NCBI RefSeq assembly: GCF_017877135.1
Contig: NZ_JAGIPH010000001.1
Location: forward strand, 1,364,001-1,428,000
Origin: Neorhizobium galegae
GTDB lineage: Bacteria; Pseudomonadota; Alphaproteobacteria; Rhizobiales; Rhizobiaceae
Length of the DNA: 64,000 nucleotides
Reading direction: 5' to 3'
Part shown: piece after piece, positions 6,490-57,183 of the stretch
Position numbering within the stretch: the first letter of the stretch is position 1
How the letters are laid out: each line of letters opens with the position of its first letter
Notes under the pieces: model-generated
What the model was told of the DNA's origin: nothing
Databases searched by the model: none
What the model saw: only the letters and a program-made list of their open reading frames with translations
Position numbers and translations under genes: made by a program

Positions 6490-6854
6490 ACACGAAGCCT
6501 TCACCGGAACGTGACCTCGCCCTCGCCGGGGCCGCCCTTGAAAAGGCGCCGGACCGCGGCCATTTCCTGTTCACCGGCACTGATCATGCCGCAGTCTGGC
6601 AGCCGGCTTGTCCCCCAGCCGCACCAGACCGGACAAAGGCCTTATCCCCCTCTCCGGGCCTTTGTCCCTCTCTCTGACCGCCACGGCTTCCCCTCCCGGC
6701 CGTGGCGGTTTTACTTTGCTGGCCTCGGCCGTTGCTGTTGCAAGACTGTCCATCGAAGGATATCGTGCTATTGATCATGCCGTTGCAGTCGCTCGGCACA
6801 CGTTCATTTGCACGCATGTGCTTGTCATTGAAGCGCAGAGGGTTCTGAGCGCAT
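6490..6854 (+). other. intergenic stretch with two strong hairpins, possible small RNA
   Basis: No convincing gene is seen here. Two strong stem-loops stand in series on the plus strand. The first is a perfect 11-bp stem at 6631-6641/6657-6667. The second is a perfect 11-bp stem at 6677-6687/6699-6709 followed by ttttactttg. The second looks like an intrinsic terminator but lies about 190 bases after the preceding stop codon, so either the upstream mRNA has a long structured 3' end or a separate small RNA ends here. Confidence 0.4.
6677..6719 (+). terminator. intrinsic terminator
   Basis: Perfect 11-bp inverted repeat (arms accgccacggc and gccgtggcggt, loop of 11) followed by a T-rich tail, ttttactttg. 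Confidence 0.6.
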
Positions 6855-8880: not shown

Positions 8881-8916
8881 TTAAAAAACAAAAAGGCCGG
8901 GACAAGCCCGACCTTT
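8881..8916 (-). terminator. intrinsic terminator of a minus-strand transcript
   Basis: Stem 8892-8901/8907-8916 with a 5-base loop. On the minus strand all ten pairs form, one as U-G, while the plus strand would have a C-A mismatch. The hairpin is followed on the minus strand by tttttgttttttaa, so the transcript comes from the minus strand. Confidence 0.75.
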
Positions 8917-8926
8917 CATTCCCGTC

Positions 8927-9037
8927 TCAGTCCCTGCCAGTACATCCGTGGTCAAACACGAAACGGGGTTGGCATTTCGATGGCTTCGGTTCATCACCGC
9001 CGCCTGTGCCTTCATCATCTCCCACGAAGGTAAACAT
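8927..9037 (-). CDS. candidate 36-residue small protein
   Basis: Short reading frame beginning MFTFVGDDEGTGGGDEPKP and ending FVFDHGCTGRD. Its stop codon lies 10 bases before a minus-strand intrinsic terminator, which is the main evidence that it is expressed. The peptide is acidic and Gly-rich with two cysteines. The only Shine-Dalgarno-like sequence (aggaag) is about 15 bases from the ATG; an in-frame GTG further upstream could be the true start. It lies downstream of cspA on the same strand but behind the cspA terminator. No family was recognised, and a non-coding RNA is the alternative. Confidence 0.4.
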   Translation of the reverse strand: MFTFVGDDEGTGGGDEPKPSKCQPRFVFDHGCTGRD

Positions 9038-9669: not shown

Positions 9670-9793
9670 TAAAACGAAAGAAGCCCGGTGCGGGAGGAGG
9701 TGCACCGGGCTTCTAAAACTGACCAGCAACCGGGAGGAGGAGGTGTTGCCAGTCCCATCGTTCGGCGCTGGGAGGAGGAGTGCGCCGTTCGAT
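9670..9793 (-). ncRNA. three-hairpin CCUCCUCCC-loop RNA ('cuckoo' type), copy 1
   Basis: On the minus strand three adjacent stem-loops each show CCUCCUCCC in the loop. Stem 1 is 9782-9793/9757-9768 with a small internal loop. Stem 2 is 9745-9753/9722-9730 and has two G-U pairs that form only in minus-strand RNA. Stem 3 is 9702-9712/9681-9691, an 11-bp perfect stem followed by ctttcgtttt, so it doubles as terminator. A -10-like TATAGT with CTGTTT 17 bases before it lies just upstream. This is the described layout of the cuckoo RNA family: 2-4 hairpins with CCUCCUCCC loops that could pair with Shine-Dalgarno sequences. No DUF1127 gene sits in front of it. Confidence 0.85.
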
Positions 9794-9912
9794 GATTTGA
9801 CTATACAGCGGTCTCGCCCAAAAAACAGCCAGACTTTTGCAGTGCAGCAATGCAAAAACGGCATATCTCGCCGCGTCTTGCGCTTCGGCACCCCCTTGGC
9901 TAGGCTGGCGTC

Positions 9913-10386
9913 ATGAGCCTTACATCCGTCAAGACCTTCTTTGCCACCCACGCGCCCGACATTGCGGTGATCGAAACGGAAGCGAGCTCCGCAACCGTGA
10001 CGCTCGCGGCCGAAGCCCATGGCGTGGATCCCGATCAGATCGCCAAGACCATCTGCCTGCGGGCGGGTGATGCGGTGATTCTCGTCGTTGCGTCAGGCAC
10101 CAGCCGGCTCGACAACCGAAAATTCCGCGACCGATTTTCCGCCAAGCCACGCATGCTGGGTGCCGAAGAGGTGGTGGAGCAGACAAGCCATCCGGTGGGC
10201 GGCGTCTGCCCGTTTGGCCTGCCGCAGCCGCTTGCGGTTTATCTCGACGTGTCGTTGAAACGATACACAGAAGTGGTTCCCGCAGCCGGCGCCATCAACG
10301 CGGCCGTCCGCATTTCGCCGGAGCGCATGGCAGAGCTGGTGTCAGGCGAATGGGTGGATGTCTGCCAAGCGACCGCAAACGCCTGA
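9913..10386 (+). CDS. YbaK/EbsC-type aminoacyl-tRNA deacylase domain protein
   Basis: Stand-alone editing-domain protein of 157 residues in the YbaK/ProX family, which hydrolyses mischarged aminoacyl-tRNAs. Conserved segments are QIAKTICLRAGD with the key Lys, LVVASGTSRLDNRKF, and the GGVCPFGLP loop. It is divergent from the small RNA at 9670-9793. The preferred substrate (Ala- or Cys-tRNAPro, or another) cannot be told from sequence alone. Confidence 0.92.
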   Translation: MSLTSVKTFFATHAPDIAVIETEASSATVTLAAEAHGVDPDQIAKTICLRAGDAVILVVASGTSRLDNRKFRDRFSAKPRMLGAEEVVEQTSHPVGGVCPFGLPQPLAVYLDVSLKRYTEVVPAAGAINAAVRISPERMAELVSGEWVDVCQATANA

Positions 10387-32415: not shown

Positions 32416-32518
32416 CTCGGGAGGTTGGTGGTGGACGAGCCACTCGCCAACCGGGTCAGGTCCGGAAGGAAGCAGCCCTAACGAGCCAGGCACGGGTCGC
32501 CGTGCCAGCCTCCCACCT
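32416..32518 (+). ncRNA. ffs: signal recognition particle RNA, small bacterial type (4.5S)
   Basis: A hairpin RNA of about 100 bases. The conserved SRP core ggtcaggtccggaaggaagc followed by agccctaacga lies at about 32454-32483. The terminal stem gggaggttgg (32419-32428) pairs fully with ccagcctccc (32505-32514), including one G-U. It forms the signal recognition particle with Ffh for co-translational membrane targeting. It lies just upstream of dnaX, a common alphaproteobacterial position. Ends are approximate. Confidence 0.95.
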
Positions 32519-48616: not shown

Positions 48617-49608
48617 GCCAGATGCTTCCCCGCAGCCGCTGGAGCAAGCTTGGCGAGGCAGCCCTCTGGTCCGGTGCCTGCGCCACGGTTCTGGCCGCGC
48701 ATCTGGCAGCAGCCTCCGTGATGCTGCGCGAGGAGCCGGAAGACACGGCGGAAGCCTCGCAGCCGGCCGCCATCATGATCGAGCTTGCCCCGGAACCGGA
48801 AGCGACCCAGACCGATGAAACGCTGGTGGCCGAAGACCAGCAGGATTCCGAAGAGGTCAAGAGCGACACGACGCAGCCGGTAGACGAACCGCTGCCCGAA
48901 CCGGTTGTCGAGCCTGCCCCGGAGCCGCCGCCAGAGCCACCCCAGGAGGTCGCGGAAACCCCTGAGCCGCCGCCGCCGGAACCCGTCATGGAGGAACCGA
49001 AGCCGGAAGAGCCGGTCAAGGAGGTTACGGAAACCATTCCTGAAAAGCCGCCGGAGCCGATCGAGGAGACGGTAGATCAGCCTGCCGAGCAGCAGCTTGC
49101 GCTTCTGCAGAATGTCGAAGTGCCGCTTCCGGTGGTGCGCCCGCCGGAGGTCGAGGAGCAAAAGCCTGAGATTACCGAGGAAAAGCCGAAGCCGGTCGAG
49201 AAGAAGGTGGTGCGCGCCGAAAAGCCAAGGCCGAAGCCGCCTGCAGCAAAGGCTGCCCAGCAGGCCAAGGCAGAGGTTCAGCAATCCGATCGCACGGCAG
49301 CGGCGGCGACGTCCACCAGCCTTGGCGGCAGTTCGCTTTCGCCGGCGCGCTGGCAGACCAAGCTTGCCGCACATCTCGGCCGCCAGAGGGGCCGCTGCCC
49401 GGCGACCGGCCGCGGCAGTACGGCCTATGTGACCTTCCGGATCGATGACGGCGGCAATCTTTCAGCCGTCTCGCTGGCCAGATCCTCCGGTTATTCCGAT
49501 TTCGACAACTATATGGTCGAACTCGTGCGCCGTGCCTCCCCCGTTCCGCCGCCTCCGGCTGGCATCGGCAACAAGGTCACGGTTCCGCTCGGCTATAAAA
49601 ACTGCTAG
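48613..49608 (+). CDS. tonB: TonB energy-transducing protein
   Basis: Protein of 331 residues. One N-terminal anchor (AALWSGACATVLAAHLAAAS) is followed by a very long Pro/Glu then Pro/Lys spacer (about 50-215) that can span the periplasm. The C-terminal TonB domain has GSTAYVTFRIDDGGNLSAVS and GYSDFDNYMVELVRRASPVP. Two cysteines bracket the C-terminal domain (RCPATG and the final YKNC), possibly a disulfide. It powers uptake of iron complexes and other ligands through outer-membrane receptors. Confidence 0.95.
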   Translation: MSQMLPRSRWSKLGEAALWSGACATVLAAHLAAASVMLREEPEDTAEASQPAAIMIELAPEPEATQTDETLVAEDQQDSEEVKSDTTQPVDEPLPEPVVEPAPEPPPEPPQEVAETPEPPPPEPVMEEPKPEEPVKEVTETIPEKPPEPIEETVDQPAEQQLALLQNVEVPLPVVRPPEVEEQKPEITEEKPKPVEKKVVRAEKPRPKPPAAKAAQQAKAEVQQSDRTAAAATSTSLGGSSLSPARWQTKLAAHLGRQRGRCPATGRGSTAYVTFRIDDGGNLSAVSLARSSGYSDFDNYMVELVRRASPVPPPPAGIGNKVTVPLGYKNC

Positions 49609-49675
49609 TTCAGGCCATCCGGGGTTTGCGCCGTTGATGAGGCGGCGCGGCCCGCCCGCCTCAGGAATAAGCAGC

Positions 49676-50677
49676 ATGCACCATACCCTTGCCGACCTTG
49701 AACGGCAGATCGCCACGGTTTTCGAAACAAGCGGCGTTCTGCCCGCATCTGCGCGCTCGGTTGCCCGCGCGCTGGTGGCTGCAGAAGCCGCCGGCCAGTC
49801 CGGCCATGGCCTGCGCCGGGTACCGGCCTATGTGAAACAGGTCAGAAGCGGCAAGGTGGATGGCCTTGCGCAGGCAAGCCTCGCTCATCCGAGACCCGGC
49901 GTGCTGGCCATCGATGCACGCGACGGCTTTGCCTATCCGGCGCTCGATCTGGCGGTCAGTACGCTTGCGCCGCTCGCCCGCAGCCAGGGGATCGCCTCGG
50001 CCGGTATCTTCCGCTCGCACCATGCCGGCGTGATGGCGCTGACGGTCGAACGCTTTGCCGAAGAAGGGCTGGTTGCCATGATGTTTGCCAATGCCCCGGC
50101 CGCCATGGCGCCCTGGGGTGGCCGAAAGCCGCTGTTCGGCACCAATCCCATTGCCTTTGCCGTGCCCGTGGGCGAGCCGGCCGACGGCACCGATCCGATC
50201 GTCATCGATCTGGCGCTCTCCAAGGTGGCGCGCGGCAAGGTGATGGAGGCCCAGCAGAAGCGCGTCTCCATTCCCGACGACTGGGCGCTCGACCCGCAAG
50301 GGCAGCCGACCACGGATCCCGACATTGCCATGCAGGGCACGATGGCGCCGGCCGGTGGTGCCAAGGGTGCAGCCCTTGCGCTGATGGTGGAGGTTCTTTC
50401 CGCCGGCATCACCGGCGCCAATTTTTCACACGAGGCTTCCTCCCTCTTCGACGACAAGGGACCACCGCCGGCGCTTGGCCATTTCATCATCGCCATCGAT
50501 CCGCAGGCGACAGCCGGGGCCGGCTTTGGTGCGCGCATGGCAGCGCTTGCCACGCTCATGGCCAGCGAAGAGGGCGTGCGCCTGCCCGGCCGCCGCGGCC
50601 GCTCCTTGCGTCGTGAAGCCCTGGAAACAGGCCTTTCTATCGACGACAGCGTGATGCAGGCGATCGCCGCCCTTTGA
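49676..50677 (+). CDS. Ldh family (malate/L-lactate dehydrogenase type) oxidoreductase
   Basis: NAD(P)-dependent enzyme of 333 residues in the Ldh_2 family, distinct from classic LDH/MDH. Marks are SGHGLRRVPAYVKQV, SHHAGVMALTVERFAEEGLV with the catalytic His, and KPLFGTNPIAFAVPVGEP. The substrate could be malate, ureidoglycolate, a sulfolactate or a Pro-derived imine; sequence does not decide. The ATG at 49676 follows aggaa. A good terminator lies downstream. Confidence 0.9.
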   Translation: MHHTLADLERQIATVFETSGVLPASARSVARALVAAEAAGQSGHGLRRVPAYVKQVRSGKVDGLAQASLAHPRPGVLAIDARDGFAYPALDLAVSTLAPLARSQGIASAGIFRSHHAGVMALTVERFAEEGLVAMMFANAPAAMAPWGGRKPLFGTNPIAFAVPVGEPADGTDPIVIDLALSKVARGKVMEAQQKRVSIPDDWALDPQGQPTTDPDIAMQGTMAPAGGAKGAALALMVEVLSAGITGANFSHEASSLFDDKGPPPALGHFIIAIDPQATAGAGFGARMAALATLMASEEGVRLPGRRGRSLRREALETGLSIDDSVMQAIAAL

Positions 50678-50789: not shown

Positions 50790-50917
50790 AAACGGAAAAA
50801 GCCTGCCGCGGGAGGAGGTGCGGCAGGCTTTTAAACTTGATCGGCAATTGGGAGGAGGAGGAGATTGCCGATCTCAACGAAGCAGCACCGGGAGGAGGAG
50901 TGCGCCGCTTCGATGGT
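50790..50917 (-). ncRNA. three-hairpin CCUCCUCCC-loop RNA ('cuckoo' type), copy 2
   Basis: On the minus strand three stem-loops each carry CCUCCUCCC in the loop. Stem 1 (50902-50912/50878-50888) has 11 pairs including G-U pairs possible only in minus-strand RNA. Stem 2 (50864-50873/50839-50848) is a perfect 10-bp stem. Stem 3 (50820-50832/50797-50809) is a perfect 13-bp stem followed by tttttccgttt, so it is also the terminator. Upstream TTGTTC-N17-TATATA is a good promoter. Stems share almost no sequence with copy 1 while loops and order are identical. It is divergent from rnd. Confidence 0.87.
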
Positions 50918-51083
50918 TTGTATATAGGCCATGGCTTCGATTCGAACAACCGCTCTGCCGCAACGCAGCAATGCATCCCGCGCAAGGCTTGGCGAGTGAT
51001 TGCTGCCCGATGCGGCAGAAAATTGCCATATTCAGACCCTGCGCCTTGGTTTATAGCCAACAGGGTCAAGCAGGAGGCAGGCC

Positions 51084-51707
51084 ATGAGCAGGATCAGGAC
51101 GCACGAGGGCGATATTTCTGCAGAGGATGCAGCGCGCTACACGGGCGCTATCGCCATCGATACCGAAACGCTGGGACTGGTTCCGCGTCGCGACAGGCTC
51201 TGCGTCGTGCAGCTTTCGCCGGGCGACGGAACAGCAGACGTCATCCGCATTGCCGCTCATCAGACGCAGGCGCCAAACCTGACCGCCATGCTGGCCGATG
51301 CCGGCCGGGAGAAAATCTTCCATTATGGTCGCTTCGACATCGCCGTGCTCTACCACACGTTCGGTGTGACCACCGCTTCGGTCTTCTGCACCAAGATCGC
51401 CTCACGCCTGACGCGTACCTATACCGACCGGCATGGGCTGAAGGACAATCTGAAGGAAATGCTGGATATCGACGTGTCAAAGGCACAGCAGCAGACCGAT
51501 TGGGCCGCCGAAACGCTGTCACAGGCGCAGTTGGATTACGCAGCCTCCGACGTGCTTTACCTGCATGGCCTGCGTGACAAGCTGATGGCCCGGCTCAAGC
51601 GCGATGAGCGGCTGGAGCTTGCCAAAGCCTGCTTCGACTTCCTGCCCACCCGCGCCAAGCTCGATCTTCTCGGCTGGGAAGAAACCGACATCTTTGCCCA
51701 TAGCTGA
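51084..51707 (+). CDS. rnd: ribonuclease D-like 3'-5' exonuclease
   Basis: DEDD-type exonuclease of 207 residues. Exo I is AIAIDTETLGLVPRRDRLC, Exo II HYGRFDIAVLYHTFG, and Exo III YAASDVLYLHGLRDKL, which keeps the catalytic Tyr and Asp. It consists of the exonuclease domain only, without the HRDC domains of E. coli RNase D, which is usual for the short rhizobial form. Its role would be tRNA or small-RNA 3' trimming. Its promoter region is shared with the divergent hairpin RNA. Confidence 0.92.
   Translation: MSRIRTHEGDISAEDAARYTGAIAIDTETLGLVPRRDRLCVVQLSPGDGTADVIRIAAHQTQAPNLTAMLADAGREKIFHYGRFDIAVLYHTFGVTTASVFCTKIASRLTRTYTDRHGLKDNLKEMLDIDVSKAQQQTDWAAETLSQAQLDYAASDVLYLHGLRDKLMARLKRDERLELAKACFDFLPTRAKLDLLGWEETDIFAHS

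Positions 51708-57107: not shown

Positions 57108-57183
<76 letters not shown>

Follow-up and report, generated by a model that had tools for sequence, protein, structure and literature searches.

Small RNAs of the αr14 family are described as consisting of three hairpins with an anti-Shine-Dalgarno motif, CCUCCUCCC, in each loop, with variable stems and several copies per genome (PMC3927594, PMC10746234, PMC7143759). One member, NfeR1 of Sinorhizobium meliloti (Smr14C2/SmelC397), is reported to silence mRNAs through three redundant loops and to pair with the start region of ntrB; LsrB is reported to activate it and NtrC to repress it (PMC10746234). Among the six αr14 copies of S. meliloti, northern blots reliably showed only one under the conditions tested (PMC7143759). 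The SmelA075 and SmelA099 models and the cuckoo RNAs are also multicopy, with three or four hairpins, CCUCCUCCC loops and variable stems (PMC3927594), and we found no difference between these and the two RNAs at the centre of this analysis. AbcR1 and AbcR2 (αr15, RF00519) are another family that, like αr14, carries anti-Shine-Dalgarno motifs in unpaired regions, and the LsrB/VtlR control proposed here for the box-bearing αr14 copies is reported for AbcR1 (PMC8844928, PMC7486931); AbcR RNAs are reported to bind Hfq, whereas NfeR1 is reported not to (PMC8844928).

The published VtlR/LsrB box reads GCAT-N3-TG-N3-T (PMC7486931, PMC8844928) and lies at -61 to -49 in AbcR1 (PMC8844928). AbcR1, and not AbcR2, is described as being controlled by VtlR in Agrobacterium (PMC7486931) and by LsrB in S. 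meliloti (PMC8844928), and LsrB itself is described as transducing redox state (PMC8844928). For S. meliloti the statements in these sources conflict, one giving the AbcRs as unchanged in an lsrB mutant (PMC7486931) and the other reporting dependence (PMC8844928).

Here, we analyze a 64,000-nucleotide stretch of a Neorhizobium galegae genome (the window), which contains two RNAs of this kind, copy 1 and copy 2 (Table 1), and compare them with their relatives in the genome, the genus and the bacterial family. Copy 2 is, in our judgment, quite probably an αr14/NfeR1 gene, one of the genome's five, encoding an RNA with a predicted role in silencing many mRNAs in trans, and the gene is likely activated by a regulator of the LsrB/VtlR type.

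Table 1. Features at and around the two αr14 RNAs, in window coordinates
Feature	Position	Strand	Basis
αr14/NfeR1-family small RNA, copy 2	50794..50918	-	RF02344, 115.3 bits; own model R1, 121.3 bits (the R1 alignment itself includes copy 2)
Hairpin 1 of copy 2, 13-nt loop, CCTCCTCCC at 50890-50898	50875..50915	-	Fold, motif
Hairpin 2 of copy 2, 15-nt loop, CCTCCTCCC at 50850-50858	50839..50873	-	Fold, motif
Hairpin 3 of copy 2, 10-nt loop, CCTCCTCCC at 50810-50818, then T run	50797..50832	-	Fold, motif, sequence
Predicted core promoter of copy 2, TTGTTC-N17-TATATA, boxes 50949-50944 / 50926-50921	50921..50949	-	Read from sequence
Likely LsrB/VtlR box of copy 2, GCAT-N3-TG-N3-T (extended core 50960-50974)	50962..50974	-	Exact in 24/24 orthologues
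RNase D-like 3'-5' exonuclease, divergent from copy 2	51084..51707	+	PF01612, 115.4 bits
Malate/L-lactate dehydrogenase family frame, convergent to copy 2	49445..50677	+	PF02615, 316.7 bits, residues 83-407
αr14/NfeR1-family small RNA, copy 1	9676..9797	-	RF02344, 107.4 bits
Likely LsrB/VtlR box of copy 1	9841..9853	-	Consensus match
YbaK-type aminoacyl-tRNA editing domain gene, divergent from copy 1	9913..10383	+	PF04073, 87.9 bits, on longer frame

Copy 2 is a second αr14/NfeR1-family RNA

Copy 2 matches the Rfam model RF02344 (αr14) over the full model (115.3 bits, E 1.2e-20), against a curated gathering score of 58.8 bits. Its predicted fold has three hairpins with loops of 13, 15 and 10 nt from 5' to 3' at -56.5 kcal/mol (z -8.3), with none of 200 shuffles being as stable, and that of copy 1 has loops of 13, 14 and 10 nt (z -6.5, again 0/200). 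A prior reading of the window from its letters (the sequence-only reading) had proposed a second three-hairpin RNA on the minus strand, with loop sizes of 10, 15 and 13 against 10, 14 and 13 in copy 1; the model match and the stable fold bear out the RNA, and the predicted folds agree with the loop sizes. CCTCCTCCC occurs seven times in the window (0.73 expected), and six of the seven occurrences are the loops of copies 1 and 2; the arrangement of three hairpins with CCUCCUCCC in each loop, the hallmark of αr14 and of NfeR1, is present in both copies. Hairpin 3, with its T run, likely doubles as an intrinsic terminator, a role that the same reading had assigned to the last stem and that fits the sequence. 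A generic scan found its sole terminator-like site at copy 2 on the plus strand (50897-50911, 0.5 expected), being blind to hairpin 3 because the scan accepts loops of at most 8 nt and this hairpin has a loop of 10 nt. Copy 2 does not belong to AbcR/αr15, as the RF00519 (suhB) model has no match at its gathering score in the window. Copy 2 is a sound second copy of the published αr14/NfeR1 family; the RNA itself belongs to a known kind and was already to be expected from the literature.

The window contains further RNA genes. An αr7 small RNA (RF02342, 100.2 bits) at 6572-6714 on the plus strand is also matched by our αr14 model R1, at 39.3 bits, so the αr7 and αr14 families may share a layout. 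A match to the αr35 small RNA barely above its cut-off (47.2 bits, cut-off 45) lies at 8886-9007 on the minus strand, within 1 kb of αr14 copy 1, and the plus strand carries a bacterial small SRP RNA (32420-32516) and a tRNA-Ala (GGC) gene (57108-57183).

Five copies in the genome and three loci kept across the genus

The search of the whole genome for further copies, proposed in the sequence-only reading, yielded five αr14 copies in total, in keeping with the several copies per genome typical of the family: copies 1 and 2, a third beside trigger factor (contig C3) and two, on contigs C8 and C10, that have on their 5' side an additional CCTCCTCCC hairpin and resemble the published four-hairpin type. 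Each of 24 same-genus genomes, this one included, has 3 to 9 RF02344 matches (E up to 0.001), and 116 of 121 genomes of the bacterial family have at least one match, 108 of them above the cut-off. The 119 same-genus matches were reduced to 113 by leaving out six, all below the gathering score; one of these, a fragment at the end of a contig, comes from the sole genome (G011) without a YbaK-side copy.

By their neighbouring genes, the RNase D-side locus (that of copy 2) is retained in 24/24 same-genus genomes, the YbaK-side locus (that of copy 1) in 23/24 and the trigger-factor-side locus in 24/24, orthologues not being independent events. A tree of the 113 RNAs gives the YbaK group (23 copies) as one split with support 0.72, the trigger factor group (24) as one split with support 1.00, and the RNase D group (24) together with two further copies as one split with support 0.97. 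For every copy of the three groups (RNase D 24/24, YbaK 23/23, trigger factor 24/24), the nearest relative in another genome falls in its own group. The window loci are, accordingly, separate orthologue groups retained across the genus. The RNase D and YbaK groups are mutually closest, with a mean identity of 0.74 as compared to 0.58 to 0.65 to other groups, and on this ground may derive from one duplication.

Loops stay fixed while stems covary

Copies 1 and 2 are 77% identical overall. In the consensus structure of 30 copies, they agree at 38 of the 52 stem columns and at 35 of the 40 loop columns; the stems diverge more than the loops, yet not almost completely, as had been claimed from the letters, which overstated the difference. 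Across these 30 copies, which are diverse, two-sided changes with pairing kept are seen at 23 of 26 stem pairs, as expected of the variable stems of αr14. Paired cells make up 98.1% in the consensus structure and at most 47.3% in slid structures, and none of 500 shuffles reaches any of five covariation measures, the tested structure being somewhat favoured because the consensus was drawn from the same 30 sequences. Three CCTCCTCCC motifs are present in each of the 24 RNase D-side and 23 YbaK-side copies, and in 15 of the 24 trigger-factor-side copies. Thus, the loops of both window groups are fixed while the stems covary.

These patterns bear on whether copy 2 might be a silent or spare duplicate, kept by chance and yielding no useful RNA. 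The reliable detection of just one of the six S. meliloti copies in the conditions tested (PMC7143759) would fit such a duplicate, but the presence of the locus in all 24 same-genus genomes with its loops intact, two-sided changes in the RNase D-side group by itself (7 of 29 pairs), and a conserved upstream block make it very improbable. The separate genus-wide retention of each locus as its own orthologue group would likewise disfavour idle redundancy, one of the two explanations that the sequence-only reading had offered for the presence of two copies.

Genes next to the RNAs

The RNase D protein encoded next to copy 2 is 94% identical to that of a Rhizobiaceae metagenome-assembled genome and 89% to that of Rhizobium straminoryzae among the best 80 of 420 relatives; judged by this protein, the organism falls within the Rhizobiaceae close to R. 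straminoryzae and Neorhizobium. In 49 of these 80 named records, a set that overlaps the genus genomes, an αr14 RNA lies divergently within 3 kb, and in 33 of the 49 within about 500 nt. The frame convergent to copy 2 probably has its true start further in than listed in Table 1.

The position of both copies divergent from genes acting on tRNA or RNA had been taken as meaningful. Three neighbours were examined family-wide: among the best 150 αr14 places, which lie in 74 of the 121 family genomes, at least 69 (in 53 genomes) have the start of trigger factor within 5.5 kb of the αr14 start, as against at least 5 with RNase D within 3 kb and at least 7 with YbaK within 1.5 kb (distances from start to start; neighbour places compared were picked by eye for possible contig sharing, 76/120 for trigger factor, 29/117 for RNase D and 15/60 for YbaK). 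Trigger factor being by far the commonest of the three, the tRNA/RNA link does not characterize the family and is local to a few genera, and we reject a functional link of these RNAs to tRNA/RNA-acting neighbours.

Promoter and upstream box

The core promoter that had been read from the letters is found before copy 2 (Table 1) and would place the transcription start near 50914. It contains CTATAT, the -10 element of the published alphaproteobacterial consensus (PMC8844928); a generic scan listed no sigma-70 promoter at copy 2. Together with the conserved block upstream, this gives copy 2 the σ70-type promoter and conserved upstream motif of αr14 RNAs, and NfeR1 and the window copies have in common both the promoter with CTATAT and an LsrB-type box at a similar distance.

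Relative to the predicted start, the putative box of copy 2 spans about -60 to -48, in line with the spacing of about 50-60 nt expected of the LsrB/VtlR regulon, and that of copy 1 is equally distant from its model start. In the window, the 13-nt box occurs no more commonly than by chance (9 matches, 9.0 expected), and 68 of 11502 background stretches contain an exact match. Within the window, the 15-nt core precedes the two αr14 RNAs and occurs nowhere else, and 8 of 100 shuffles contain at least two matches to this core with one mismatch allowed. The weight of the evidence for the candidate box is in its position and conservation, not in its frequency in the window: 13 of the 15 box columns are at least 90% conserved on the RNase D side, compared to 8 of 76 elsewhere upstream, and 11 of 15 on the YbaK side, compared to 24 of 76. 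The box is exact in all 24 RNase D-side copies, in 8 of 23 YbaK-side copies (23/23 within one mismatch), in 28 of 38 four-hairpin copies (37/38 within one mismatch) and in one of the four remaining copies of the genus. In the four-hairpin copies, it is shifted upstream by about 38 nt, in accordance with the extra hairpin; the spacing of the box would be fixed relative to the promoter rather than to the RNA body, also where there is a fourth hairpin.

The second explanation offered in the sequence-only reading was that copies 1 and 2 respond to different triggers, each with its own regulator and condition, such that separate sensors would feed one silencing module. The core promoters of the two copies are indeed unlike, the YbaK side has more conserved upstream columns than the RNase D side and few exact boxes, and each locus is retained separately; nevertheless, with the box at the same distance before both RNAs and within one mismatch in 47/47 copies, we regard different triggers as unlikely, and the conserved box at the same spacing speaks for a shared LsrB-type input.

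Boxes of LysR-type regulators resemble one another, and the 13-nt consensus is loose, as its chance-level frequency in the window indicates, so the box could be real and yet serve another LysR-type or similar regulator rather than LsrB/VtlR. We would give this reading a low probability, too, given that the box fits the published consensus, that its distance from the predicted start is close to that in AbcR1 (PMC8844928), and that a TGC-N7-GCAT layout much like the NfeR1 site (PMC10746234) overlaps with it. A LysR regulator is also encoded next to the AbcR-like RNAs of the genome (RF00519 matches on contigs C2 and C4); the box precedes the first of these RNAs and not the second, and this pattern, too, favours an LsrB/VtlR-type regulator as the probable activator of copy 2.

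The trigger-factor-side copies

Among the 24 trigger-factor-side copies of the genus, none has the box at -62..-50, even with one mismatch, and three have it within one mismatch at -102..-86. In this genome, the trigger-factor-side copy (G000:C3:45056-45175) has no box near the model start and a TATAGT-like site farther upstream; this copy may have a longer 5' part. About 4 kb from it, at G000:C3:49160-49205, GGGAGGAGG and CCTCCTCCC form the arms of an inverted repeat.

Four relatives outside the genus, Ensifer sesbaniae, Sinorhizobium psoraleae, Sinorhizobium sp. 8-89 and Shinella fusca, have two tandem αr14 copies near trigger factor; in each pair the farther copy has an exact box at -61, and the nearer copy has no box within one mismatch at -110..-40. 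The window copies adjoin RNase D and YbaK, whereas in two named Sinorhizobium and one Ensifer relatives the copy with the published NfeR1 motif, TGCA-N6-GCAT, is 2.8-3.1 kb away from trigger factor. Comparison with these relatives suggests that the NfeR1 locus may be the trigger factor locus, where neither window copy lies; we found no paper naming both NfeR1 and trigger factor.

Predicted targets

The complement of eight loop bases, GGGAGGAG, lies 3 to 9 bases before an ATG at 42 places in the genome (one start counted twice and one place inside an αr14 copy), compared to 17 places in the range of 23 to 29 bases, of which an αr14 copy accounts for two and one inverted repeat for another two; read backwards, it gives 5 and 4 places at the same two distances. 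This excess mostly reflects a good Shine-Dalgarno sequence. Twelve of the 42 places (11 distinct starts) were examined as loci and ten downstream frames were scanned, two of which encode solute-binding proteins; both NfeR1 targets that had been validated earlier than ntrB belong to this class (PMC8844928).

The start region of ntrB contains GGGAGG, which is seen in none of 36 crude window genes, each taken to begin at the first ATG of its frame. By pairing energy, however, ntrB is not exceptional, as 4 of these 36 genes pair at least as well, and the case for ntrB as a target specific to copy 2 is weak.

Discussion

By the mechanism that we favour, an LsrB/VtlR-type LysR regulator would switch copy 2 on, and any of the three CCUCCUCCC loops would pair with Shine-Dalgarno regions and block translation. 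By analogy with NfeR1 of S. meliloti, the loops would act redundantly and the targets would be mainly transport and metabolic mRNAs; hairpin 3 would, in addition, end transcription. With their shared box, copies 1 and 2 would answer the same input and their doses would add up, and differences between their core promoters may set their respective strengths. The trigger-factor-side copy of the genus, without a box at that place, would be controlled otherwise.

A broader proposal, which we put forward tentatively and with somewhat less than even confidence, is that most of this paralogous set of Shine-Dalgarno-blocking RNAs, three- and four-hairpin alike, is subject to one LsrB/VtlR input, and that the trigger-factor-side copy left that control in the genus. 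Against the LsrB/VtlR-type control favoured for copy 2 stand the trigger-factor-side copies of the genus, which lack the box although the same type of locus has NfeR1-like motifs in Sinorhizobium.

The useful result is the sorting of the copies, with three loci kept genus-wide and the putative box present at two of these and before the four-hairpin copies, and absent at the trigger-factor-side copy. The question why rhizobia keep several αr14 copies thereby becomes a simple test, the levels of each copy in the wild type as compared to an lsrB-like mutant. If the broader proposal is true, one redox-linked regulator would set, from several unlinked loci, the total dose of one universal loop.
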